IMG/VR virus record: IMGVR_UViG_3300035698_006191
Span: 1-51,682 of that record
Length of the DNA stretch: 51,682 nucleotides
Strand: one strand, 5' to 3'
Origin: a virus
Under the pieces are notes generated by a model. It was not told the origin of the DNA, ran no database searches, and worked only from the letters and a program-made list of their open reading frames with translations. The position numbers were made by a program, and so were the translations under genes. Positions 16,895-42,038 of this stretch are shown in pieces. Position 1 is the stretch's first letter, and each line of letters opens with the position of its first letter.

Positions 16895-17941
16895 CTAAGT
16901 AATCTGCGCAAACACAGATTGACGGCGAAGATTCGTGCAGACCAACTCGAAAGTCGCATCGAGATCAACACGTCGCACGTTATGCCGGTCGGGCACCATG
17001 TACGGCTTCGTGAGATTCTTTTCCCAACCGGGCATAACGCCGCATGCCATCCAATTCCAGTCGATCATATAGACCGGGTTGTCGGTATCGGCATCCAACT
17101 TAGGAGCAAATGTCAACGGCGTACCCTTGAACAACGTGCGACCATCCTTGCTCGCAAGATCATTCCCGAGGTTCATGTTCTGAGACTCAAGAACCTCCTC
17201 GCAGATACCAATCACAGTATCGTTGGTGTAGATGCCATTTCGCATTCCGCCGAGCTTCGGCTGTGCGTGAGAAACAGGAGAGCGAAAGTTAGTCTGACGG
17301 ACGCCCTTACGCATCTTACGCACTAAGTCTTCCTTGGTAATCGCAGCATAATCTGCTGCATAGTTCGCCCAACGCGACTGCTCCGAAGACAAAATATGAG
17401 CACGGCCAATAGCCTCGTAGCCAACGGGGTCAACACCCTTGAAACCCTCTTCACCGGCAGCACACTTCTGAATCCAGTAAGAGATTCCATGTGGAGTCTT
17501 GTCGTCAGTAGCCGCCGGGCTGCCCCAAAGATAAGATTCCATTGTCGTATAGAACGAAACCATCATGGCGACATAGCGAGAGTAGACAAGATCAACGATA
17601 GCCTTGCCGCCCTGCTGAAACGCCTTCTCGCGCAATTCGTAAATATAATGCGCGTTGACATGCCTCGGGCGAACGTAACCCTCAATCAGGGTGTCAGTCA
17701 TGGCCGATCCATCAGTCTCGTACAGACCAACAGCGCGAGCGCTATGGTTGTGGTCAACCTGCGCCTGAAATTGCCAGTCATCACCACCGGAAAATTTCTT
17801 CTGCTTGCCCTGCCACACTTCCCTGACGGCAACATGGTCCGTCAAGTCGGTTTGGAGATCAAGAAACGCACCCTTTCTGATAAGGTGTTCCTGTGTTGCG
17901 ATGACAGCATCGTCGATATCAGCATACTGAAGAGTAGCCAT
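16895..17941 (-). CDS. Major capsid protein (348 aa)
   Basis: Follows the scaffold gene and is of the right size. The C-terminal third, VYMIDWNWMACGVMPGWEKN then DRHNVRRVDLD and LVCTNLRRQSVF, matches a widespread phage major capsid family with an HK97 fold that ends in a conserved arginine-rich strand. The N-terminal half is helical (AVREVWQGKQKKFSGGDDW). No protease domain is fused, consistent with a separate scaffold. The HK97 fold is inferred from family resemblance. Confidence 0.85.
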   Translation of the reverse strand: MATLQYADIDDAVIATQEHLIRKGAFLDLQTDLTDHVAVREVWQGKQKKFSGGDDWQFQAQVDHNHSARAVGLYETDGSAMTDTLIEGYVRPRHVNAHYIYELREKAFQQGGKAIVDLVYSRYVAMMVSFYTTMESYLWGSPAATDDKTPHGISYWIQKCAAGEEGFKGVDPVGYEAIGRAHILSSEQSRWANYAADYAAITKEDLVRKMRKGVRQTNFRSPVSHAQPKLGGMRNGIYTNDTVIGICEEVLESQNMNLGNDLASKDGRTLFKGTPLTFAPKLDADTDNPVYMIDWNWMACGVMPGWEKNLTKPYMVPDRHNVRRVDLDATFELVCTNLRRQSVFAQIT

Positions 17942-17972: not shown

Positions 17973-18917
17973 CTACTTGCCAAGAAAGCGCTTCTCAAGC
18001 ATAGCAGCAGCTTCGTCCAATGGATCGGTTGTTGCTTTATGTTTATTCCCACCCGCGCGATGCAAATGCTGCTTGCCTCGCTTTTCGAGATCACTAGAAA
18101 TCTTCTTCTCACGAGAAGCCTGAAATTCATCCGACAGCACGGACTTCGCGGCTGTCGCAAAAACCTCTTCGCGCGAAGGTAACTGCACGCCCCTGGCCTG
18201 ATAGCCAGCCCAAAGTGTAGTCATATAATCTACAATCTCACCGCGTTTCGCATGTTGCGAACTTCCTTTTACTAGCGTCTTAGACTCACCAGCGCCAAGG
18301 GTATCGTGGTATTCATCGCCCAAGTTACTAACCTGAGAATCAAACCACGCTTCTAATTCACGTTCGGCAACATCAGCATTTGCGCGAACGGATGATTCAT
18401 TGTATTCACGCGACTGCTTCGCGTTGTAATTAATCGTTTGTTGCTGCTTCTTAACAACATCAACAATAGCCCCGAACATCTTGATCGTGTCAGCATCGTA
18501 AACTTCTGGATCAAGCTCGGGGATGCCAGCAAGCGGGTCTTCCTCCTCCTCTTGCTTTTTTGCATTCTGCTTTGTACTTTTCTCGCTTACCTCTTCTTGT
18601 AGCGATTCGATATTTGCTATAACAGATAATAGCGCTTCTTCGCTAACGAAATGCCTTGCATTTCCTAGTGTAAATCCAGCCCTAGCTGCGCGCTCCAAGG
18701 CGCTATCGCTGATTCCTATTGGTTCTGGATCAGGATCAGGCTCGGGATCAGGCTCGGGATCAGGCTCGGGATCAGGCTCGGGATCAGGCTCCGGCTCGGG
18801 GCTCGGTTCCTGGTTATCATTCGGTTCCGGATCGAGGTTTGGTTCCGGGTTCTGTTCCTCAACCAACACATCAACTGCACCAGTAACCTCAGCATCAAAG
18901 CTCTCTTCAAGCGACAT
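17973..18917 (-). CDS. Scaffolding protein with DPEP repeat (314 aa)
   Basis: Acidic and Pro-rich at the N-terminus: a run of EPEPDPEP units (residues about 35-65) encoded by tandem 12-base repeats. This is followed by a long Gln/Glu/Lys helical region (ESLQEEVSEKSTKQNAKKQE), and a basic C-terminus (HRAGGNKHKATTDPLDEAA). Acidic start, helical middle and basic tail is the typical layout of phage scaffolds, and it directly precedes the capsid gene. ATG is preceded by AAGAAGAGAG. Confidence 0.8.
   Translation of the reverse strand: MSLEESFDAEVTGAVDVLVEEQNPEPNLDPEPNDNQEPSPEPEPDPEPDPEPDPEPDPEPDPDPEPIGISDSALERAARAGFTLGNARHFVSEEALLSVIANIESLQEEVSEKSTKQNAKKQEEEEDPLAGIPELDPEVYDADTIKMFGAIVDVVKKQQQTINYNAKQSREYNESSVRANADVAERELEAWFDSQVSNLGDEYHDTLGAGESKTLVKGSSQHAKRGEIVDYMTTLWAGYQARGVQLPSREEVFATAAKSVLSDEFQASREKKISSDLEKRGKQHLHRAGGNKHKATTDPLDEAAAMLEKRFLGK
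18733..18795. repeat. 12-base tandem repeat coding the DPEP tract
   Basis: About five copies of GGATCAGGCTCG (reading on the + strand) with minor variation encode Asp-Pro-Glu-Pro units of the scaffold. Such repeats can expand or contract by slippage. Confidence 0.8.
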
Positions 18918-19270: not shown

Positions 19271-21037
19271 TTACCCAGCATCACCTTCCGCCCCGCCTTC
19301 GGATATTAGCTGCTGAACCATATCATCAGTTCCTCCGCCCTGTTGCGCTGGTTCACTCGAATGAACGTATTCGCGCGGCTCACTGGACGTGCTGCCACCA
19401 GCGCCGCCTGGAGTATCACCCTGTGGCTGATCCACAAAAGTCACATATTCATTAACCTCCTGCATATCCGAGTATTTCGCAACATCGCGCAGAATAGCTT
19501 GCACATCCACAGAACCGTTCTGCTGTCGGATCAGTGGCTCCAGCGGAATGATGTATGTACTCATAATCGCGCCCAGCTTTTGCAACTTCAAACTAGGTGA
19601 ATCATCCTGAAGCGAATAAACATCAATGTCAAGGTCATACGAATCAAAAGACCCCCGCTTAGATTGCTGATCCCACTGCACGGGAAGCACGATATCAGTG
19701 CCAGGAACCTTCTTCTCTAGTAATCTCTTACTTAGCGGATTGTCCCATTCGTACCAAACCAACGACTGAAACACTTCCCTCACCGTGTCAATTGTCTGAG
19801 CAGCCATGTCGCGCAACTGCGCGCCAGCAGCTTCGCCAAGGAGCTTGTCCTGCCCAATTGTGTTAGACATCGGTGACAATCCACCAAGGCTATCGAGATT
19901 GCCGGCAAAGTACGAAGAGACATCCTTATTGACAGACCAGAAAGCCAGGGTGCGTGGATCAACCCCACCTGCGGTCAACTTCTTCGGTTCTTGCCCAGCA
20001 TAGCTAATGCCATCACCATCTTTAGCATTCTTGAACTGTTGCACAGATGGATCATCACCACCAGGGAAACCCAGCACTGTCTTTTGTGCATCAGCTTGCC
20101 CGCCAAGTTTACGATAAAGAGCATTTGACAACTCATGCAGATCACGCCAAACGGCTACAGGGGGAAGCGGCATTATGTTACCAGGAACCTCAGAGAATCT
20201 CAGCTTTGGATACGGACCACGTCCCGGTCCTTTCCACTCAATGACATTTAGCTTCAATCCACTCGTAATAGCGTACGTAACCATCAATTGTTCCGCTGGA
20301 AGCCAAACGTCGCGAAGATGCAAGCGATCCTTAAATAGATCAGGCGAACCGCCGCCAGCGATTCCTTCAGCGCGATCTTCTCCATTCGGTCCAATCATAG
20401 TAACTTCGTCAGGCTTCAAAACATCCTTAGATTTCTTTTCACCCCAACCGGAATCCATAAACTCCTCGTAGTCAAGCCAGTAATCATTCCCCTCATACTG
20501 AAAGAGGTCGGGATTCCTGGCTGACATATCGCAGAAATAATCGTCAATGGTGATATTATCAACGAATGACTCGCCATAAGGATGACCAAGCGCATCACCA
20601 ACAGTATGTATCCCAACCTTCAGAATACCAATAGAAAAAAGAGCTTCCAAAACCAGACGCCTGAGAGTCTTCGCAAGTTGAATCTCCTTTGGTATTTGGT
20701 TGACCGCCAACTCCAGATTGACAGCGGTAGGGCGCAGATTAGGGTAGCGAGTAGTAATCATTGCACGAGGCGCGCGAGCCGCAAGCTGCCTAATGTAAAT
20801 ATCAACAGCTAGCTTCAAGACATTCACGGGCATAATCTTCTCGCTGCCATCCTCCATGTAATGCGTACCTACAAGCAACTTGATCGCATCAATTCGCTGC
20901 GCGCGTGGATAGCTCAACTGGCCATTCGACCACTCGATACTTTTCTTTAGCTGACTGAAGTGCTTGTCGCTTAGTGGATTCACTCCGCCGCCTCGAATCT
21001 GCTTCTTATCGCTATCGCCTATTTGACTCTCTGGCAT
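19271..21037 (-). CDS. Portal protein (588 aa)
   Basis: Lies immediately after the large terminase and has the size of a podovirus-type portal. The middle is rich in helices and carries DAIKLLVGTHYMEDGSEKIM, then LFSIGILKVGIH and FVDNITIDDYFCDMSARNP, segments typical of the portal clip and wing regions. The C-terminus is Pro/Gly-rich and disordered. The start ATG is one base after the terminase stop. Expected to form the dodecameric ring at the packaging vertex. Confidence 0.85.
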   Translation of the reverse strand: MPESQIGDSDKKQIRGGGVNPLSDKHFSQLKKSIEWSNGQLSYPRAQRIDAIKLLVGTHYMEDGSEKIMPVNVLKLAVDIYIRQLAARAPRAMITTRYPNLRPTAVNLELAVNQIPKEIQLAKTLRRLVLEALFSIGILKVGIHTVGDALGHPYGESFVDNITIDDYFCDMSARNPDLFQYEGNDYWLDYEEFMDSGWGEKKSKDVLKPDEVTMIGPNGEDRAEGIAGGGSPDLFKDRLHLRDVWLPAEQLMVTYAITSGLKLNVIEWKGPGRGPYPKLRFSEVPGNIMPLPPVAVWRDLHELSNALYRKLGGQADAQKTVLGFPGGDDPSVQQFKNAKDGDGISYAGQEPKKLTAGGVDPRTLAFWSVNKDVSSYFAGNLDSLGGLSPMSNTIGQDKLLGEAAGAQLRDMAAQTIDTVREVFQSLVWYEWDNPLSKRLLEKKVPGTDIVLPVQWDQQSKRGSFDSYDLDIDVYSLQDDSPSLKLQKLGAIMSTYIIPLEPLIRQQNGSVDVQAILRDVAKYSDMQEVNEYVTFVDQPQGDTPGGAGGSTSSEPREYVHSSEPAQQGGGTDDMVQQLISEGGAEGDAG

Positions 21038-21038
21038 A

Positions 21039-22850
21039 TTAGCACCATTCTTTCCCTAATTCTCGGTTCGATTGTCGTTTTTCTGATTCTCGCATTTGAT
21101 TCCTCCAGGCAAGGCAACCGGGTGGAATCTCTGGCTTGGATAGTTGCGCCGCTACAGGTCTGCCGGTCAGCCCCTTCCAGGCAAGTGCGTCTGCCATTGC
21201 CCTGTCGCCGTGATTCGATTTTGCGCCAGTTGGATCGTCCTTATTGTTAGCGCGAATATGCACGACCTCGCCGTTAGGACCATGCACATATTCAAGTGTT
21301 TCATCCATAGCTTCTTTGGAGCGATTGATTGCAACCCCCTTTTCAACGGCAGTACGATATTCCCCCATCATTACCAGCTTCCCTTCCTTAGTGGAACCCC
21401 ACCCAGGAACATTACTCACCTTACCGGAAATACCCTCCGTGCGCCTACCATAATAAACATTAGTATAGCGAAGTTCCATTAGCCTACTCCCGAACTGACT
21501 GCCAGGTCCATTTTTCTCCCATATAACGTGGGCATTATTAAGCCACTTTCCAATCGCGCACGTCTGTTTTGCAAATTGCTCAGGGCGAATATACGGACTA
21601 GTGAATTCTAGAATCTTTTCGAGTGTCGTGGTATTCCAACCAGCGCAACATGAATTCGACGCTCCACTTCCCGTTGAAATATCATTTCCTAAAACTACCT
21701 TATGTTCGATTGATGGCCAACCTTGCTTATTCAAGAAGAACCACAGCCGCAAGTTACCATTTAGATTTTCAACAAAACGTATTGGTTCACCGGTAGTGTC
21801 GTCGTATTCTAAGTCACCAATCAGAAGCGGCGGTTTAGCAAACTCTCGAATCCTTGCGAGAATTTCAGGTGCATCAAAAAACTGGAAACCGCTACCAAGG
21901 TAATCAATATCCAATTCCTGCGCAATCTCGTGCGCGGATGGAGTACGACTACACTCTTCGTCGTACCACGGGCTGCGTAGTTTTTTGTCGAGTATAGGCT
22001 GGAAGTCGCAGGGATAGCCAGCGAGATCGAGAACTTGCAAATTGCCATCACCGTCGGTTTTATATAAACCGGCAGCTTTAGATGGATGTGAAGACCAATG
22101 TAAACGCATCGTCTCGATGCCTAGCTGCTTGACATCGTAGAACGCATTGCCAGTCCCCTTGGGAGTGGAATTAAACAAGCGGCATCTAGTTGCATCACGA
22201 GTGGCCGACAAAACCTGATGACCCTGCTCCACGGCGGCAAACTCATCCAACAGGATTGCTGTACGTCGATCACCGCGCGCAAAATCCTTCGTCGTCGCCT
22301 CGCCGTCAATCACCGATCCGTTCTCAGGATTCTCAATATGTAGATGCTTGCGATGTTCATTTGCATTGTAACCATCCGGCTGAAGCCAAACCGGCAGATT
22401 CATAAGAATGTAATCCACCTTCCAGAATAGCGCTTTCGGATTGCCCTTTTTATCAACGTAATCCTCGACACGCGACCCAAGTAAGAAAGACAACCCCTTC
22501 TTGAAATTCCAGCACCAGAAGATTGCCGTAAGATCAACCCACGACGCGCCCATATCACGACTCTTCTCTATTAAGAGATCGTGGCTGCCTATGGCGCGCA
22601 AGACATCCAGAATCGCATCCTCCTGAAACGGATACAGAATAAATGGAATCTTCGTAAATGGTTCGCACCGTGGATCGTAAGTCCACACGAAACCGTTTAT
22701 AAAAAAGAGTGGGTCTCTTTCGCAACATTCGCGGATAACCGCAGCGTATTTGGGGTCTTCGCGTACTTTACGATGCACTAACGCGCGCCAGCGAAGATTC
22801 GCCTTGACGTCTTTTGGAACGCGACTGTTAAGCGGTGTCGCTGTTTTCAC
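21039..22850 (-). CDS. terL: Terminase large subunit (ATPase-nuclease)
   Basis: A typical terminase of 603 residues from the GTG that overlaps the previous stop (TAGTG). The packaging ATPase shows IEKSRDMGASW as the Walker A-like loop in the first 110 residues, then TAILLDEFAAV as Walker B, and SATRDATRCRLFNSTPKGTG as the coupling region. The nuclease domain has LGNDISTGSGA with an acidic pair and HGDRAMADALAW near the end. It cuts concatemers and pumps DNA into the prohead with the portal. An ATG further upstream would overlap the neighbouring zinc gene and is less likely. Confidence 0.93.
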   Translation of the reverse strand: MKTATPLNSRVPKDVKANLRWRALVHRKVREDPKYAAVIRECCERDPLFFINGFVWTYDPRCEPFTKIPFILYPFQEDAILDVLRAIGSHDLLIEKSRDMGASWVDLTAIFWCWNFKKGLSFLLGSRVEDYVDKKGNPKALFWKVDYILMNLPVWLQPDGYNANEHRKHLHIENPENGSVIDGEATTKDFARGDRRTAILLDEFAAVEQGHQVLSATRDATRCRLFNSTPKGTGNAFYDVKQLGIETMRLHWSSHPSKAAGLYKTDGDGNLQVLDLAGYPCDFQPILDKKLRSPWYDEECSRTPSAHEIAQELDIDYLGSGFQFFDAPEILARIREFAKPPLLIGDLEYDDTTGEPIRFVENLNGNLRLWFFLNKQGWPSIEHKVVLGNDISTGSGASNSCCAGWNTTTLEKILEFTSPYIRPEQFAKQTCAIGKWLNNAHVIWEKNGPGSQFGSRLMELRYTNVYYGRRTEGISGKVSNVPGWGSTKEGKLVMMGEYRTAVEKGVAINRSKEAMDETLEYVHGPNGEVVHIRANNKDDPTGAKSNHGDRAMADALAWKGLTGRPVAAQLSKPEIPPGCLAWRNQMRESEKRQSNRELGKEWC

Positions 22851-23053
22851 TACGGTTGCCTGTAAAACAAATCCATGCACTCCCGATCGCACCAGAACTT
22901 CGTTTCGCTATAGTTAACCGCCAACCTATCGCCAGCGGCACACACGCACGAGTTGACTGTTCTTACATGCGACACATTAAACCTTTTACCGCACTGATCG
23001 CAACCAGTTACTAACTCCGGATAAACCTTAACTCTTTTCTTTCCCTTCGCCAT
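22850..23053 (-). CDS. Small zinc-ribbon-like protein 1 of 3 (67 aa)
   Basis: Cysteines in CDQCGK and FWCDREC form a C-x2-C...C-x3-C pattern, with an extra CVC pair between them. The flanking gene starts share the K/W-F-C-x2-x-C ending. The stop overlaps the terminase GTG by one base. Likely zinc binding, possibly a nucleic-acid or protein adaptor. The family is not recognised. Confidence 0.7.
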   Translation of the reverse strand: MAKGKKRVKVYPELVTGCDQCGKRFNVSHVRTVNSCVCAAGDRLAVNYSETKFWCDRECMDLFYRQP

Positions 23054-23461: not shown

Positions 23462-23665
23462 CTACGCTTCTCTTTCTACTAAACGCACTTCACGCGGTTC
23501 AAGCAAAACCGAGTGTCGATCTCCGTGATACCACCAAACGACTTCCCACTCAACGAGCCTGACTTGCCCGGTAATGCAAATACGAGAAATCAAAGCGTCT
23601 CCGCCATCACGCAAAACAACATAGCGCCCAATTGAATCAAGCGAACACATTTCATTAGGCGTCAT
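23462..23665 (-). CDS. Small hypothetical protein (67 aa)
   Basis: A short protein of beta-like composition (RYVVLRDGGDALISRICI, VEWEVVWWYHGD), with no recognised motif. It overlaps the upstream gene by 11 bases and almost abuts the next one, so it is part of the same leftward message. WEVVWWYHGDRHSVLLEPREV reads like an SH3-like small barrel, but that is only a resemblance. Confidence 0.55.
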   Translation of the reverse strand: MTPNEMCSLDSIGRYVVLRDGGDALISRICITGQVRLVEWEVVWWYHGDRHSVLLEPREVRLVEREA

Positions 23666-24440
23666 GTGTTTCGTGGTTGTGCTTTTCGTTTTCCCTCTTC
23701 CCTTCTGACAGTTCCTTCAGCATTAAGTCCAATTCGTCAATTGTACGTGTACTCTTACGTAAGTTGGCATCATCCTTACCTGCATCCTTTTCAACTTTCG
23801 ATTCGACCTGACCAACCTTACCTAAGAAATCCTTCGGATCGGCTACCGCCTGCTCGTATAGATACCACGCAGCATCGCACGGGCACACGGCTGGCGCTTC
23901 CCTGGTTCGCAAATAATTGCCAGCAGCTTCTATCGCCCACTGCAAGCTTTGCTTGTACGTCAGCTTTTTATTTTCACAGATAGCCTTTGGTTCGCCAACA
24001 GGGCTTACGCTACCAACCTTAACTGCATGGCTTCCTGGATTCGGATCATGCGCGCTCAGATCGTATTCCCTGGTCAATCTGTCGAGACAGCGATAATCCT
24101 TCGACGCCTGGACAACCGCCTGCGCATAAGTGTATCCGGCACCATCCTCTAACTGATATTGCTCGACGGCATCCTTCCACTTGTTATAGGTCTTTTTCAA
24201 CGACCCCCCATCCATACGCCACAGTACAGATTTCGCACGGGATGCGAATTCAGATATGCTTCCGTTCACGCTGATTGGCTCCTTCTGCGGACGCTTAGCA
24301 CCCATTTCAATGGCAATATGCCTAATGCGCTGACGAGAGACGCCGAACCTGGAGGCAATATCCTGCACCTTTTGTCCAGCAGAATAGCGCTTGGCAATTT
24401 CACATCGCTGCCCCTCATTCATTGCTGTGGGGTTCCCCAT
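23655..24440 (-). CDS. HTH protein, candidate small terminase subunit (261 aa)
   Basis: Residues 8-45 form a helix-turn-helix: GQKVQDIASRFGVSRQRIRHI. The rest is helical with a conserved-looking CPCDAAWYLYEQAV around residue 190, and an acidic/basic C-terminus. The order (HTH protein, small genes, large terminase, portal) and size fit a small terminase that recognises packaging DNA. No direct family match can be shown. The ATG follows GGAGGGGGG and sits 17 bases below its own -10. Alternative: a transcription regulator of the late arm. Confidence 0.55.
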   Translation of the reverse strand: MGNPTAMNEGQRCEIAKRYSAGQKVQDIASRFGVSRQRIRHIAIEMGAKRPQKEPISVNGSISEFASRAKSVLWRMDGGSLKKTYNKWKDAVEQYQLEDGAGYTYAQAVVQASKDYRCLDRLTREYDLSAHDPNPGSHAVKVGSVSPVGEPKAICENKKLTYKQSLQWAIEAAGNYLRTREAPAVCPCDAAWYLYEQAVADPKDFLGKVGQVESKVEKDAGKDDANLRKSTRTIDELDLMLKELSEGKRENEKHNHETHDA

Positions 24441-25912: not shown

Positions 25913-25941
25913 AGTATACCACGCATCCAGCGCAATGTCAA
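25913..25941 (-). promoter_or_regulatory. Strong sigma70-type promoter, start of leftward arm
   Basis: TTGACA, 17 bases, TATACT with TGG before the -10. A near-consensus promoter reading into the 25873 gene and probably the whole leftward arm. Confidence 0.8.
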
Positions 25942-26150
25942 GGAAGAAATAACACGTATTCTACTATCACTAATAAGAACCATTACTAATAACGGACTAA
26001 GATTACTTCTGGCGCGCGAACACCGAAAACAGCCATACCGGCAATCCAATTGAGTAGTGGTCAGACTACCCGCATTCCCTGGGTGAATCGAAGGTATTCG
26101 CTGCACACGAGCCTAGGCTTACTGCGTATAGTCGTCAGCAAAGGTGGGGC
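25942..26150. other. Gene-free stretch left of the iterons
   Basis: No convincing gene on either strand. I see no clear hairpin or promoter here beyond the edge of the leftward promoter, and a CGCATC core at 25922 just before it. Confidence 0.4.
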
Positions 26151-26187
26151 GGGTGGTTCGCATCCCCCGCACACAAAAAATCGAGTC

Positions 26188-26236
26188 CTTGATGCGGACT
26201 GATGCGGACTGATGCGGACATACTACTCGCATCCCC
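26188..26236 (+). repeat. Left arm of a perfect 49-base inverted repeat
   Basis: Starts CTTGATGCGG, carries GATGCGGACT units, then ATACTACTCGCATCCCC. It is the exact reverse complement of 26319-26367. Confidence 0.95.
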
Positions 26237-26241
26237 CTCAA

Positions 26242-26295
26242 ACGTGGCGAAAATGCGAAAAGTACAACTAATGGGCTATTTAGTTGATAGCCACG
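26242..26295. repeat. Inner hairpins in the palindrome loop
   Basis: Within the 82-base loop, CGTGGC pairs with GCCACG, and inside that GGCTAT pairs with ATAGCC around a 7-base loop. Confidence 0.55.
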
Positions 26296-26318
26296 GGGTA
26301 AAAAGTAATACTTGTGCA

Positions 26319-26367
26319 GGGGATGCGAGTAGTATGTCCGCATCAGTCCGCATCAGTCCGCATCAAG
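26319..26367 (-). repeat. Right arm of the perfect 49-base inverted repeat
   Basis: Reverse complement of 26188-26236, separated by an 82-base loop. In single-stranded form it would make a very stable stem. Confidence 0.95.
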
Positions 26368-26436: not shown

Positions 26437-26460
26437 TATATAATATATATATATATATAT
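26437..26460. repeat. AT-dinucleotide tract, possible unwinding element
   Basis: A 24-base stretch of only A and T, the last 17 an alternating AT run. AT-rich tracts beside iterons are typical opening sites. A slippage-prone simple repeat is the alternative. Confidence 0.6.
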
Positions 26461-26599
26461 GTACTATTATACCCAACTTCAAGACTTCAAGGCACCACCG
26501 CTCATATTTTCATTTTCTTTCAATATAGTCACTGTGGTGTTTTTTTCCATGTATATACCCACCCAATCCGAAAATCTTGATGCGGACAAATTTTTGGTA

Positions 26600-27155: not shown

Positions 27156-27204
27156 AAAAAGAATGCCCCTGCCATGTTCTGGAGAAACATGGCAAGGGCA
27201 GGGG
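27156..27204 (-). terminator. Rho-independent terminator for the short leftward unit
   Basis: Leftward RNA: GCCATGTT pairs with AACATGGC around a 7-base loop, extended by CCCCT/AGGGG, followed by CATTCTTTTT. It lies just below the 27228 stop. Confidence 0.75.
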
Positions 27205-27227: not shown

Positions 27228-27530
27228 TTAGTTGTAATGATCCAAACGTTGTCGATTGTCTGTAGGCAGGATGATATCCTCCACTAGCACACAAATACTG
27301 ATATCGTTATTTCCACCATGTTCATGGGTAGAAAATCCCAGTTCCCTTATATTGGGATGGTTTCCTAAAACTAGCTTGCCGGTATCCCGATCTAGATAGG
27401 CAAGCATGGCAGACATTGGACGGTATCGACTCGTTGCCCATAATCGTACACAGCTATCGAAACTATCGAGGGAAATATCCACTATCTCCTTAGTCTCATG
27501 TTTCCTGTCCCTTTGTAATTCTAATCTCAT
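27228..27530 (-). CDS. Small hypothetical protein next to the origin (100 aa)
   Basis: A mixed alpha/beta protein (RPMSAMLAYLDRDTGKLVLG, GGNNDISICVLVED) with no known motif. The ATG overlaps the upstream stop as ATGA, and a terminator follows the gene. The two-gene unit has its own promoter and may control early functions, but nothing in the sequence proves this. Confidence 0.6.
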   Translation of the reverse strand: MRLELQRDRKHETKEIVDISLDSFDSCVRLWATSRYRPMSAMLAYLDRDTGKLVLGNHPNIRELGFSTHEHGGNNDISICVLVEDIILPTDNRQRLDHYN

Positions 27531-27724
27531 AGCTTGACCTCCTCGGCGAAAACGATTGGCAGACCGTTACGGATCACAACAGCCCCGTTATCCCATGTGG
27601 CCATTCGTCCATAATCACTCGCCCTCCGTTCGCATTCCTTGCTGAAAAATGTCTTGCGCATCGCATGCTCGTTATCGGCACTACATACAATTACGTCATC
27701 CCTACTAATATAAACCACCAACAT
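27527..27724 (-). CDS. Small hypothetical protein, first of a two-gene leftward unit (65 aa)
   Basis: I start at MLVVYISRDDVIV, because a strong ribosome site (AGGGGG) lies at the right distance and the -10 is further upstream; longer readings would pass through the promoter. The protein is short, with YGRMATWDNGAVVIRNGLP in the middle. Function unknown. Confidence 0.6.
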   Translation of the reverse strand: MLVVYISRDDVIVCSADNEHAMRKTFFSKECERRASDYGRMATWDNGAVVIRNGLPIVFAEEVKL

Positions 27725-27742
27725 AAAACATTTCCCCCTGTG

Positions 27743-27751
27743 AAAGTGTAG
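27743..27751 (-). promoter_or_regulatory. CTACACTTT leader motif
   Basis: Leftward CTACACTTT followed by CACAGGGGG, the ribosome site for the 27724 start. Confidence 0.4.
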
Positions 27752-27771
27752 CTGTTTCTCTTGAATATGTA

Positions 27772-27799
27772 ATTCTACCACGCAATAGCTGGCTGTCAA
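27772..27799 (-). promoter_or_regulatory. Leftward promoter of the two-gene unit
   Basis: TTGACA, 16 bases, TAGAAT with TGG before the -10. It diverges from the rightward early promoter at 27850. Confidence 0.7.
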
Positions 27800-27849
27800 G
27801 CAATAATCCGAGAATAATCCTAGCTGTAGTATAATGTCAAATTTTTTGC

Positions 27850-27878
27850 TTGACAATCATGGAATAACGTGCTAGGGT
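27850..27878 (+). promoter_or_regulatory. Rightward early promoter 1
   Basis: TTGACA, 17 bases, TAGGGT preceded by TGC (extended -10). It shares the 11-base sequence TAACGTGCTAG with the promoter at 30652. Confidence 0.65.
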
Positions 27879-28971: not shown

Positions 28972-29631
28972 ATGCAGATTGAATTATTCGGCAATCCGAA
29001 ACGGGTTGCAATGTCGAGAGTGGAGTTACTATTAGCCATAGCCGAAAGGATGGGCCACTATATCCACCTGGCGGAAGGATGTTGCGAACCAGGCTATGAT
29101 GATAAGCCGGTTGCATTAGGCAACTGGAACAGCCGAACTAAATACGACAAAGAAACAAACACCCATGAGACACTCGACGAAACCATGCCACGTCTAGCCA
29201 AGCTATTCGAGAGGCTTGGCTATGTCGTCGAATGGGAAGATGAGTGGTGTACTTGCGAAGATTGCTGTAAAGCCTTCCGCAATTCCCCCGATAGCTATTC
29301 ATGGAAACCCTATTATCTCATGGGTGACGGGTGGGTTGTATGCAGGAATTGCGTAGAAAATGACCCGGAATCATACCTGGAGGAGTATGTCGGCAACCCC
29401 AGCAAGTGTTTGACTTTTGACATTGACCTAGAGCAGTTTGGCTATTTGTTACACAGTGGGGATCATGAAAGTGGGTATCACCCCGGCCAAAACGCCAACC
29501 CGGAGGAAATTGCCAAGCAGTTGCGGGAGGAGAAAATCGACGATTTTATTTTCGTTTTGGATGAAAACAGTCAATTCTATTCTAGCTTTTCTGTGTGGGT
29601 CAAGCTAGGGGAAGATGGAGGGGACGACTAA
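28972..29631 (+). CDS. Zinc-binding hypothetical protein (219 aa)
   Basis: Contains CTCEDCCKAF and VVCRNC about 50 residues apart, a possible zinc site, in a mixed helical protein with an acidic C-terminus (GEDGGDD). Start after AGGGGGAAATA. Possibly a nucleic-acid or protein-binding early protein. The family is not recognised. Confidence 0.6.
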   Translation: MQIELFGNPKRVAMSRVELLLAIAERMGHYIHLAEGCCEPGYDDKPVALGNWNSRTKYDKETNTHETLDETMPRLAKLFERLGYVVEWEDEWCTCEDCCKAFRNSPDSYSWKPYYLMGDGWVVCRNCVENDPESYLEEYVGNPSKCLTFDIDLEQFGYLLHSGDHESGYHPGQNANPEEIAKQLREEKIDDFIFVLDENSQFYSSFSVWVKLGEDGGDD

Positions 29632-32089: not shown

Positions 32090-32370
32090 TGGCCCCAACG
32101 AAACAATGCACGCATTGCAGGAGGATACTGCCTAGGTCGATATTTCGACATTGGAAAAAATGGGGGAATAACAGATCACACATGCGAGTGCAGACTGATT
32201 CTGTTTGTAAAACATGTAAGACGAAATACAGGGCTAATAAGCGAGCTAGGGATAGTGCGGCGAACGGAAACACTGACCGTTTTTTCAAGCAGGTCGAAAA
32301 CCGCGACGAACCGCGAGCCGATAGGTTACGCGAGTACTACGAAAAAGCGAAACGAGGTCTATCACTATAG
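32089..32370 (+). CDS. Basic zinc-finger protein (93 aa)
   Basis: CTHCRRILPRSIF then SVCKTCKTKYRANKRAR, with a strongly basic composition. This looks like a small DNA-binding zinc ribbon, similar in layout to the 30495 protein. A GTG start shares a base with the preceding stop. Confidence 0.6.
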   Translation: MAPTKQCTHCRRILPRSIFRHWKKWGNNRSHMRVQTDSVCKTCKTKYRANKRARDSAANGNTDRFFKQVENRDEPRADRLREYYEKAKRGLSL

Positions 32371-32380
32371 GGGGTATCGA

Positions 32381-33085
32381 ATGACAACTAGAGCAGTGAT
32401 CTATTGTAGGTTTTCACCAAGGCCGAAGGCCGTTGAATGCGAAAGTAATAGGCACCAGCGTTTCAGGTGTAATGCATATTGCCGAACGCGAAAGTATGAT
32501 GTTGTGAATACCTGGGAAGATGCCGCCGTGTCTGGAAGAACGCTTGATCGTCCGCAACTTAATGCGGCGATTGCGGCATTGGAGCCGGGGATGGTCTTGG
32601 TGGTCGATTCCTCGGATCGCTTGGCCCGAGATATGCTCGTGAATCTGACGATTCGCGGCGAAGTGGAGCGGGCCGGTTGCACAATAGAGTATGCCGATGG
32701 GTCGCCGTTGACCAACACTCCAGAAGGCGAGCTATTCCAAAACGTTATGGCGGCGTTTGCGGCATACGAGCGGGCGAAGTATTCATGTCGAACAAGCGCC
32801 GGAATCAAGAAAAAGCAAGCCGAGGGGAAACATTTCGGCGGTGTGCCGTATGGGTCTAAGCGTAACCACTCAGGGCAGCTTACGGATAGCGAATCAGAGC
32901 GAAACGTGATAGATCGTATAATGGAGCATTCGTCTCTCGGTTTTCATTCCGATTGGATCAGTGATTTCCTTAACTTACCGACAAATAACTTCCCGGCTTG
33001 CCGTGGCAACCCCTGGAAGGCTCGGACGGTGAGAAAAATAATCGCCCGCGAAAAGAAAAGACTTGACACTAAGCTGGAAGCATGA
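32381..33085 (+). CDS. Small serine recombinase (resolvase/invertase type, 234 aa)
   Basis: Start at MTTRAVIYCRFS after AGGGGGT; an upstream start would overlap the previous gene. S12 in YCRFS is the catalytic serine. SGRTLDRPQL and DSSDRLARD carry family arginines, FQNVMAAFAAYERAK is the long helix, and GKHFGGVPYG opens a short DNA-binding C-terminus. Without the long domains of large integrases it resembles resolvases. It may resolve multimers of replicating genomes or act as a site-specific switch. A lysogeny function cannot be read from the window. Confidence 0.85.
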   Translation: MTTRAVIYCRFSPRPKAVECESNRHQRFRCNAYCRTRKYDVVNTWEDAAVSGRTLDRPQLNAAIAALEPGMVLVVDSSDRLARDMLVNLTIRGEVERAGCTIEYADGSPLTNTPEGELFQNVMAAFAAYERAKYSCRTSAGIKKKQAEGKHFGGVPYGSKRNHSGQLTDSESERNVIDRIMEHSSLGFHSDWISDFLNLPTNNFPACRGNPWKARTVRKIIAREKKRLDTKLEA

Positions 33086-38635: not shown

Positions 38636-40876
38636 ATGAATCCTCTACTTAAAGCTGCACTCGAGTACGCTAAGCACGGGTGGTGTATTCTTCCATGTTT
38701 GCCGGGTGAGAAGCGCCCAGCTACGACGCATGGTGTACATGATGCCACTACAGACGAAAAACAGATCATCGAATGGTGGGAACGAAACCCTAATTACAAT
38801 ATAGCCGTGGCTTGTGGAGAGGATAGCGGTATTACAGTTGTTGATATTGATAGCAACTGCGAAGAGTGGCTGACAAAGTTACCGAAAACACTTACACAAA
38901 ACACTCCAAGGGGGGGCTACCATGCGTTTTACTCTCACATTGACGGCGTCTCTAATTCTGTCAATGCTAAGCCCGGCATTGATTTTCGCAACGATGGCGG
39001 ATACGTTCTGTTGTCGCCATCTAGTTTGTTCTTACCTGGGGATAGTGCTCGTATTTACAGGTGGTGTGCTGGCGGGCTCACTGACAGAACAAACCTGTCA
39101 TCCTTCCCGGAATGGTTAATTCCAAGTAAAGGACAATTGTATGAGTCAAACGATTCTACGAGACCCGTTCATGATGATTCACACATACTTGAGCGAGCTA
39201 GGCTATATTTGGCAGAATGTGAACCAGCTATACAGGGGCAAGCTGGCCACGACAAGTTATTCTACGTAGCGGGCAGGATGGTGCATGGGTTCAATCTAAC
39301 TGATTCTCAAGCCTATGGGCTATTGCTACACGAGTATAATCCACGATGTATCCCGCCGTGGGACTTAACAAGTCTAAGAGACGAGAAAGACTTCCGCCGT
39401 AAAATCACCGAGGCGCGTAAAAATCCACCTAAAGACCACAAACCAGGATGGCTGTTAAATGATTATTCTCATGATAACAATAATGGCAATGTTACCGTTG
39501 ATATCGCTTCTATTATTTCGCATAGTATTCAGGCTGGATCAGGTAGGATCGACGCTACTGAAAATTCGATTGAAGTTAGCGCATCCAGAAATCTGGAACT
39601 AGATTTTCTGTGCCAACCAACTGGAATGTTAGGCGAGATGTGTTCATGGCTAAATGATACGGCGCTAGTTCGGCAGCCGTTCATCTCATTGGCGGCAAGC
39701 CTGACATTTCTTGGAGCGTTGTTCGGAAGGAAGATACGCGACAAGCTGGGGGGCCGAACGAACTTGTACTGCATGAGTATTGCGAACTCTTCTGCCGGAA
39801 AGAATCATGTTCTGACGCAAATACGCGAGTTGTGTATGGCCGCAGAATGTGTCGAGCTACTTGGCGGTTCTGACATTGCATCGGATACTGCTCTCGAAGA
39901 TCGCATGAGTATTAGCCCAACAACACTTTTTCTGTTGGATGAAATTGGGCACTACCTAATACACATAAAATCTGGAATCAGTGGCCACCACGCGCTAATT
40001 GTTTCCGCGCTAATGAAGCTGTATTCGTCTGCTGGAAGCATGTATCTAGGAAAAGAGTATGCAAGCAGGGAGCATCAGCGCACGATCATACAGCCATGCT
40101 GCTGCCTATACGGAACGTCCACGCCAGCTCGCTTCATAGAAGGATTATCCCCCGAGGAGCTTCAGGATGGATGGCTTAGTAGGTGCCTTGTTTTCAGCGC
40201 GACTGAGAACATAAGAAAAAGCCGTGAGGACAAAGATCGCGACTATATTCCAGATGCGCTAATCGAAAAGGTTAAGATGTGGAGGGCGTACAGAGTCGAG
40301 AATCAGATAGAGAACGAATTCGCTAAACACGCAAACCAAGTTGCGTTTTCTATCAAGCCGAAGCAATTCCTGATCCCAACTACGCAATCTGCAAATAGGA
40401 TTTTCCACGCTTTTGATGACGAGGCCCATGAGTACGGAGTTGGTCATCACCGATTAGCCTGCTTGTGGGGCAAGGCCGAAGAAAACGCGCGTCGCGTTGC
40501 GTTGAACGTAGCTGCCGGCAATCATTTTATTGACGGAGCAATAGATGTTCAAGAGGCTGATTATGCGTGTAGGCTAATACGCTTCCTGCTAGTTGATTTC
40601 TGTGATAGAATAGCCCCAGAGATCGTGGCAAGCGAAGCCGAGAGGAATAAACGAAAGGTGCGCAGTGCCATAGCTAGCGCTGGGATAAACGGCATGGCAC
40701 AAAGCGATCTTACGCGGGTTACACAGTGGACGGATCATAGAAGCAGAAATAGTATGCTGAATGATCTCGTTGAAGCTGGAGAAATCATCATGGAGAGGTT
40801 CGGCTCCACTTGCTATTACTGGACTGCCGGAAACGCTGCGGAGTATTCAAAAACGCTTAGAAAGGTAACGGAATGA
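38636..40876 (+). CDS. Prim-Pol primase fused to DUF3987 ATPase domain (746 aa)
   Basis: N-terminal part is a bifunctional primase/polymerase fold: GWCILPCLPGEKRPA, D70/D72 in VVDIDS, H96 in GGYHAFY and the following GIDFRNDGGYVLLSPSS. Residues about 350-550 match the DUF3987 helicase-like region, with ANSSAGKNH as a Walker A-like loop and LFLLDEIG as Walker B, then GTSTPARF. The C-terminus resembles a winged helix. It likely primes replication and may drive unwinding at the origin. Two ATGs lie four bases apart; the second is used here. Confidence 0.88.
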   Translation: MNPLLKAALEYAKHGWCILPCLPGEKRPATTHGVHDATTDEKQIIEWWERNPNYNIAVACGEDSGITVVDIDSNCEEWLTKLPKTLTQNTPRGGYHAFYSHIDGVSNSVNAKPGIDFRNDGGYVLLSPSSLFLPGDSARIYRWCAGGLTDRTNLSSFPEWLIPSKGQLYESNDSTRPVHDDSHILERARLYLAECEPAIQGQAGHDKLFYVAGRMVHGFNLTDSQAYGLLLHEYNPRCIPPWDLTSLRDEKDFRRKITEARKNPPKDHKPGWLLNDYSHDNNNGNVTVDIASIISHSIQAGSGRIDATENSIEVSASRNLELDFLCQPTGMLGEMCSWLNDTALVRQPFISLAASLTFLGALFGRKIRDKLGGRTNLYCMSIANSSAGKNHVLTQIRELCMAAECVELLGGSDIASDTALEDRMSISPTTLFLLDEIGHYLIHIKSGISGHHALIVSALMKLYSSAGSMYLGKEYASREHQRTIIQPCCCLYGTSTPARFIEGLSPEELQDGWLSRCLVFSATENIRKSREDKDRDYIPDALIEKVKMWRAYRVENQIENEFAKHANQVAFSIKPKQFLIPTTQSANRIFHAFDDEAHEYGVGHHRLACLWGKAEENARRVALNVAAGNHFIDGAIDVQEADYACRLIRFLLVDFCDRIAPEIVASEAERNKRKVRSAIASAGINGMAQSDLTRVTQWTDHRSRNSMLNDLVEAGEIIMERFGSTCYYWTAGNAAEYSKTLRKVTE

Positions 40877-41310: not shown

Positions 41311-41481
41311 ATGACAGATACTCAGTTTAAGTCAATGTTAAATTGGATGATCTGTAGTGATCCCTGGCCATGCTCTGCGTATGATTGTGCGCGAATGCAA
41401 GAATATCTAGATACGGAATCTAAAAAACGCGGATACAGATACTGGATTGAAGCATTACATAAAGAAGCGGTGAAAGTATGA
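41311..41481 (+). CDS. Small hypothetical protein (56 aa)
   Basis: MTDTQFKSMLNWMICSDPWP followed by SAYDCARMQEYLD. Coupled to the next gene by ATGA. It resembles small protein-protein adaptors only in size. Confidence 0.5.
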   Translation: MTDTQFKSMLNWMICSDPWPCSAYDCARMQEYLDTESKKRGYRYWIEALHKEAVKV

Positions 41482-42038
41482 AACTAATCACACCAGACCA
41501 GGAGGCGAATATCTGCCGTTTGTATGATTCGTCTCGTAGTGTAAAGAACATAGTGAAGATGCTTGACATTTCTCGCTATGCAGTGTATACTGTAATCAAC
41601 GCTCGTAATGCAATCGCGAACACGACGAACAGTAAGATTCGTCGCATATTAAGAATGCTTGAAGCGGAAATACCGATCGAGATCATCGAACTCAAAACAC
41701 TTACACCCGGGAATTATATTCGTGCGATCAGGGGGCTGTATAAACTGCGCGGGAAAACGCTCGATGGTGCGGAGCCGTTTGTATGCCCGGCTTGCGGGTC
41801 TATTGTGTCGTGGTCTATCAGCAAGTGTTATGACGCCAAGAGTGGTAAGAAGGCTTCACGAGATGACATTCCATACGGCTACAGTATTCAGTTTGCCATG
41901 TGCGACATGCTATGCAATCTCGTGAACCTGCATACGCTTGGTATTATCGACAATCCGTTATTTTGCAGCCTAGCTACAGAAACAAAAGATTTACTGGAGT
42001 ATGTTCATGGTAAAGAAAACACGACCAACACCAACTGA
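41478..42038 (+). CDS. HTH and zinc-binding protein (186 aa)
   Basis: Residues about 13-45 form a helix-turn-helix (SVKNIVKMLDISRYAVYTVI). FVCPACGSIVSW around residue 105 is a zinc ribbon half. A third segment has CDMLC. DNA-binding regulator or terminase-like protein are both possible. The last 32 bases overlap the next gene. A consensus promoter also lies inside this frame. Confidence 0.6.
   Translation: MKLITPDQEANICRLYDSSRSVKNIVKMLDISRYAVYTVINARNAIANTTNSKIRRILRMLEAEIPIEIIELKTLTPGNYIRAIRGLYKLRGKTLDGAEPFVCPACGSIVSWSISKCYDAKSGKKASRDDIPYGYSIQFAMCDMLCNLVNLHTLGIIDNPLFCSLATETKDLLEYVHGKENTTNTN
41563..41591 (+). promoter_or_regulatory. Near-consensus promoter inside the HTH gene
   Basis: TTGACA, 17 bases, TATACT. 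Codon constraints alone could produce it, but the match is strong. Would transcribe the genes from 42007 onward. Confidence 0.4.

Follow-up and report, generated by a model that had tools for sequence, protein, structure and literature searches.

Replication of the archaeal plasmid pRN1 requires a 100-nt stem-loop, predicted at 75 °C to have a 21-nt stem and a 58-nt loop, and among relatives of pRN1 its sequence varies while its structure does not (Berkner et al. 2014, PMC4234260). A stem-loop origin has been proposed also for Bordetella phage BIP-1, and such origins have been linked with Prim-Pol initiators in some phages (PMC4234260). Iterons are absent from pRN1; the P4 alpha protein binds repeats via a winged helix (PMC4234260). 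SaPI Rep and SCCmec Cch2 are initiator helicases acting on short iterons, for which two hexamers have been proposed, and the Cch2 origin has direct as well as inverted repeats (PMC7581432).

Here we analysed a 51.7-kb stretch of viral DNA (the window, an IMG/VR record of its own), a siphovirus-like genome from an uncultured group, which has relatives in Verrucomicrobiota/PVC bacteria, probably infects Verrucomicrobiota and has no DNA similarity to known phages. We infer, with a probability of about 0.62, that the region at 26.07-26.59 kb is the phage replication origin, with a PrimPol-DUF3987 protein as its probable binder. Such an origin would resemble that of P4 by its iterons and that of pRN1 by its stem-loop, and would combine the two.

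The window shares with pRN1 and its ORF904 protein a Prim-Pol domain, a helicase region, a predicted C-terminal winged helix and a large stem-loop. However, its 49-bp stem consists mostly of iterons, the long stem is missing from many of its relatives, and the helicase part of its protein matches DUF3987. Moreover, the pRN1 stem-loop adjoins the replication gene, directly downstream of it, whereas the repeat in the window is 12 kb away from the PrimPol gene, and by this lack of gene adjacency the locus is not of the pRN1 type. The multidomain primase-helicase architecture and a winged helix for origin repeats, predicted in our case, recall P4 alpha (PMC4234260), but P4 has a bacterial-type (Toprim) primase, unlike the window, and the described P4 comparison includes no long inverted repeat. 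The likeness to SaPI Rep and SCCmec Cch2 lies in an initiator helicase on short iterons; these systems differ in having a separate primase and an origin that immediately follows the helicase gene (PMC7581432).

Structure of the inverted repeat

The two arms, 26188-26236 and 26319-26367, pair over 49 nt without any mismatch and flank a spacer of 82 nt (26237-26318), and each carries three tandem units; in both respects the preliminary description of this DNA was correct. The left arm (+ strand) has GATGCGGAC units at 26191, 26201 and 26211 followed by the inner, non-iteron sequence ATACTACTCGCATCCCC, and the right arm has its GATGCGGAC units on the - strand at 26336, 26346 and 26356. In full, the units of each arm (n = 3) read GATGCGGACT, GATGCGGACT and GATGCGGACA. 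They are spaced by 10 bp, which is one helical turn, and form two facing arrays of three, with 17 nt of inner stem in each arm lying outside the iteron units.

No other inverted repeat of the window comes close to this one in strength, and it is not due to chance. The next longest exact inverted repeat, when shifted registers of the main one are excluded, has 15 nt, and in 40 simulated windows (first-order Markov) the longest perfect arms were 10-14 nt at a span of up to 400. The DNA folding energy gave z = -17.7. We also considered a transposon or MITE origin and rejected it, as the flanks (...ATCGAGTC and ACGATTTT...) show no target-site duplication and the genome has no second copy. The unique flanks, the unique spacer and a collinear relative speak against an assembly artefact. 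The Rfam search gave no match.

Regarding the spacer, a loop folded by CGTGGC/GCCACG around GGCTAT/ATAGCC had been suggested. The two pairings cannot coexist, since ATAGCC (26287-26292) and GCCACG (26290-26295) share the letters GCC. CGTGGC/GCCACG can be combined with CAACTAA/TTAGTTG, but the spacer fold is not significantly stable, being matched or beaten by 15 of 200 shuffles (z = -1.69). The spacer also contains a weak promoter-like match on the + strand.

Other elements of the control region

Altogether there are seven copies of GATGCGGAC, none of them elsewhere in the genome, which makes it the strongest both-strand clustered motif of the window (log10E -17.6, clustered-motif scan). The solitary seventh copy (26579-26587, + strand) lies beyond a 34-bp TA tract (26438-26471), a candidate unwinding element that begins 70 bp from the right arm and aligns with that of the closest relative (TATATATATTATAnACTTAA). 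The relative has a solitary site at the same relative position (L030:1801). Clustered short repeats (seven copies of GATGCGGAC) and an adjacent AT-rich element, as expected of an iteron origin, were thus both found. No DnaA-like boxes were found.

On the - strand, two diverged copies of an inner-arm motif are present at 26159-26167 (GGGGATGCG) and 26071-26079 (GGGAATGCG). They belong to a series of ATGCG copies at 26228, 26159, 26071 and 25922 that runs toward a putative late promoter (see below), the last of them (25922-25926) within the promoter spacer. An element of the GGGGGCCCC type occurs at about 26767, and similar ones in the same intergenic region of the contigs L005 (five, at 1418-1670), L037, L048 and L053. 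Next in strength among the clustered motifs of the window are five tandem 12-bp units with GCCTGATCC, situated inside a late gene (about 18733-18789).

Genomic context

No convincing genes were recognised in the 1.35 kb that contain the repeat. To the left of the repeat, late genes run leftward from 25873 and include an HTH protein that is the putative small terminase (23655-24440), the large terminase (21039-22892) and the putative major capsid protein (MCP, 16895-17941), which is conserved in relatives and named from its position and conservation. To the right, two more ORFs (27228-27530 and 27527-27856) are also leftward, and the rightward genes begin at about 28 kb. This set comprises a serine recombinase of the resolvase family (32255-33085), a Sak4-like annealing protein, a DUF669/SSB-like protein, a Cas4-type exonuclease, a helicase, the PrimPol-DUF3987 protein, a RusA-like resolvase and an exonuclease. 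A further HTH protein is encoded at 41478-42038, and for the protein at 28972-29631 no relatives were found. The repeat had been placed exactly between the divergent arms of the genome; it does lie in the main intergenic region, but because of the leftward ORFs on its right, transcription diverges only at about 27.9-28.4 kb.

A sigma-70-like promoter for the leftward late genes was predicted by consensus match at 25913-25941 (- strand, TTGACA-17-TATACT, 11/12) and aligns with the promoter of the closest relative. An intrinsic-terminator-like hairpin, likewise a consensus match only (27164-27200, - strand, 16 pairs and a T run), comes directly after the leftward ORFs 27228-27856, against which it would insulate the origin-like region. 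As the predicted terminator (27200-27164) and promoter (25941-25913) bracket the region, the repeat would lie outside any leftward transcript.

Candidate initiator

The best candidate for an initiator is the PrimPol-DUF3987 primase-helicase of 746 aa, encoded at 38636-40876 on the + strand, 12.3 kb from the repeat. It matches the Pfam Prim-Pol family (archaeo-eukaryotic type) with E 1.6e-33, and the only solved sequence relatives found were structures of pRN1 ORF904, the nearest with a profile E of 7.3e-5, over the Prim-Pol domain. For the helicase part we obtained DUF3987 only, below the cut-off in the window protein and matched in all 12 members with E up to 0.1; none of the SF3 helicase families matched. 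The protein aligns well across these 12 sequences (window and 11 relatives).

AlphaFold2 predicted a C-terminal winged helix with the order helix-helix-helix-strand-strand at residues 667-730 (about 40634-40825). For this part, most pLDDT values exceeded 80 in both models and 90 in the model of the C-terminal fragment; the full model was poor (mean pLDDT 61), and a structure search with it returned largely winged-helix proteins, none at a significant E-value. Top matches of Foldseek against PDB were mostly winged-helix proteins as well, with E 0.018 or more and none below 0.001. The predicted winged helix is therefore suggested by its topology together with many concordant weak matches.

A PrimPol relative is encoded in all 13 genomes compared, those of G010 and G012 being less similar. 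In G009, G020 and G023, which have no PrimPol match, there was no comparable site cluster near the terminase; these three relatives are a small set, among the most distant and phylogenetically confounded. If the region is an origin, the PrimPol is quite likely the iteron-binding protein.

Inverted repeats in related genomes

The search with the MCP recovered 66 loci in viral contigs and five in bacteria, namely Cerasicoccus frondis, Lentisphaerae, Verrucomicrobia and Kiritimatiellae. No MCP relative was found in the 50,697 phage records of INPHARED, and replication in this group is thus apparently unstudied. In Cerasicoccus frondis, of the Verrucomicrobiota, a 272-kb contig (JAVDPC010000005.1) bears a related prophage-like region in which an MCP (61 %), a terminase and a PrimPol match were found; the orientation of its replication genes is not that of the window. 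Among more distant relatives (L006-L022, terminase about 45 % identical), most contigs begin upstream of the terminase gene at a distance of 0.5-2.1 kb, and these starts may mark fixed genome ends.

The closest relative, G001 (L285), has an MCP 72 % identical to that of the window. At the same place, ATGCGGAC occurs eight times next to a TA tract, together with an imperfect inverted repeat of 43 nt, and the two genomes are collinear here in solitary site, TA tract, facing arrays and late promoter. Its motif CATGCGGAC (8 copies, log10E -21.2) is the strongest both-strand cluster of that genome and does not occur elsewhere in it. The exact pattern GATGCGGACTGATGCGGAC had no match in the viral contigs. 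A looser one, ATGCGGACN{2,4}ATGCGGAC, returned 120 stretches, only two of which weakly matched a window protein, and was treated as chance.

A gapped inverted-repeat scan showed that the inverted repeat at this place is the genome's strongest only in the window (score 101, next in the genome 26), G001 (53, next 27) and G002 (61, next 32), the G002 hairpin being different, with a short loop and no iterons. The other ten genomes had no outstanding inverted repeat here. Arm pairs of 32 nt (score 46) and 25 nt (score 30) were detected in the partial contigs L053 and L005. The inner stem pairs at 17/17 positions in the window (ATACTACTCGCATCCCC) and at about 20/23 with one gap in G001 (AAAACTTTTCATACCACCTAAGA). 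The short stretch ATACTACT / ATACCACC may be homologous between the two, and the rest cannot be confidently aligned. A stem-loop without sequence conservation is thus seen between the window and G001, in shorter form in L053 and L005, and is absent from most other relatives. The expectation that the arms would be conserved in related phages with compensating changes is borne out only in that the inner stem of G001 differs and still pairs; two sequences are too few for a covariation test.

These comparisons bear on whether the perfect 49-nt pairing has any function. Strong selection had been argued from the instability of long perfect palindromes. The argument is weak, since the repeat has an 82-nt spacer and is not a spacer-less palindrome, and strong selection is hard to reconcile with an imperfect repeat in the closest relative (53 vs 101) and with no long one in most relatives. 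Nor need perfect arms mean selection, because template switching could homogenise them, a process described for inverted-repeat arms (PMC8604942). It is a serious possibility, if short of even odds, that the iterons are functional and that template switching turned imperfect facing arrays into a perfect pairing without function of its own. Both the imperfect arms of G001 and the lack of a long inverted repeat in most relatives would fit, but the window and G001 each pair beyond the iterons with largely different sequences. Such homogenisation is compatible with an origin and competes only with a role for the hairpin, so that its likelihood does not subtract from that of the origin.

Site clusters, TA tracts and GC skew

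We placed 13 long genomes in a common frame with the terminase start at 20,000. In 12 of them, the GC-skew minimum falls 1.5-5 kb upstream of the terminase start (21.5-25.0 kb in the frame), bracketing the repeat region; in the remaining one it is at 18.7 kb. The minimum of the window, at about 27.7 kb, coincides with the point where transcription diverges and is some 1.4 kb away from the repeat. GC skew is not independent evidence, since it follows gene orientation here. TA tracts were found at 21.8-23.8 kb of the frame in seven genomes.

Regarding clustered sites, (G/C)ATGCGGAC is common to the window and G001, and other both-strand clusters are ATGTTGC in G008 and GGGACAC in G005. GTGTC(C/A) peaks at this place in G002, G004, G005, G006, G010 and G011; the same holds for four partial contigs, namely L005, L037 (which nearly duplicates G002), L053 and L074. 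The counts reach 12 in G005 and L053, 11 in L005, 8 in G004, 7 in L074 and 6 each in G002 and G010, against a background mean of about 0.3-1 per 600 bp, and the clusters often surround the TA tract. In G014 a GTGTCC cluster lies elsewhere, at 31.6 kb, and G007, G013 and G015, all with PrimPol, showed no clear site cluster by these tests. In a control, we ordered 6,144 degenerate 6-mers according to the number of genomes clustering each of them here. GTGTC[CA] came 18th (6 genomes), behind TA repeats, C/G runs, GGGGC[CT] and TG repeats, and 4,110 patterns scored zero, which means that the region is marked also by TA, G/C-run and GT-rich sequence. The feature recurring among the relatives is a cluster of short sites, often with a TA tract.

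Alternative explanations

The repeats could instead be operators at which a phage repressor or activator controls the late promoter 25941-25913 and perhaps rightward transcription, possibly by looping between the arrays. The region does lie between opposing gene blocks in a genome that encodes HTH proteins, and four ATGCG copies outside the six iterons head to the late promoter, one entering its spacer. However, the main arrays are about 250-450 bp upstream of this promoter, beyond the usual distance of simple repression, and several relatives again have a TA tract next to the sites. We find a purely regulatory region unlikely. It is also only partly a rival, as dual use with an origin is possible: with an ATGCG in the promoter spacer, the iteron-binding protein could also act on late transcription.

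A site for DNA packaging (pac or cos), to which the small terminase would bind, seems less likely still. Facing sites about 120 bp apart recall the arrangement of lambda cosB, the region begins the late operon of a genome with a candidate HTH small terminase at 23655-24440, and three of six non-circular contigs (G002, G011 and G014) break close by, at 23.8-24.5 kb of the common frame. But hairpins or G runs can also cause contig breaks, and seven relatives close as circles through the region with scattered breakpoints, which argues against a fixed end there. The putative small terminase is also encoded some 1.75 kb away, and a TA tract would be unexpected in such a site.

It is very improbable that the region is a res site or invertible segment of the serine recombinase (32255-33085). 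The genome does encode this resolvase-family protein, and invertible segments can have inverted repeats at their ends. But tandem 10-bp iterons are atypical of res sites, the spacer was not seen in both orientations in the assembled sequences, and no recombinase match turned up in G002, G005, G010, G011 and others with the site cluster. Recombinase matches in L285 (G001) and at G012:47595-48287 have one in-frame TGA each.

Proposed origin and its mechanism

A replication origin, which the preliminary description had implied, is the best reading we found, from the facing arrays, the TA tract, the nearby GC-skew minima and the replication protein with its predicted winged helix; the strong selection invoked for it is unsupported. 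At such an origin, the initiator, most likely the PrimPol-helicase through its C-terminal winged helix, would bind the GATGCGGAC iterons and oligomerise, possibly as two opposed helicase rings. Either the TA tract at 26438-26471 or an extruded stem-loop would then open, the PrimPol domain would prime, and forks would depart in both directions. The hairpin itself may be functional, though we hold this to be somewhat doubtful, because most relatives have no hairpin and template switching can homogenise arms. It would be a further step, and a rather unlikely one, if iterons recognised by the winged helix were part of the stem of a hairpin that is itself extruded to open the strands or to serve in priming, and if iteron sequence and stem changed in concert while the initiator evolved in this group of Verrucomicrobiota phages. 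An origin of this type would unite the two known solutions for primase-helicase initiators.

For this phage group, a mappable origin and a named candidate initiator make replication open to testing, and Cerasicoccus frondis may represent a cultured host lineage. The group also offers natural variants with and without a stem-loop for studying the link with Prim-Pol initiators that pRN1 suggested.
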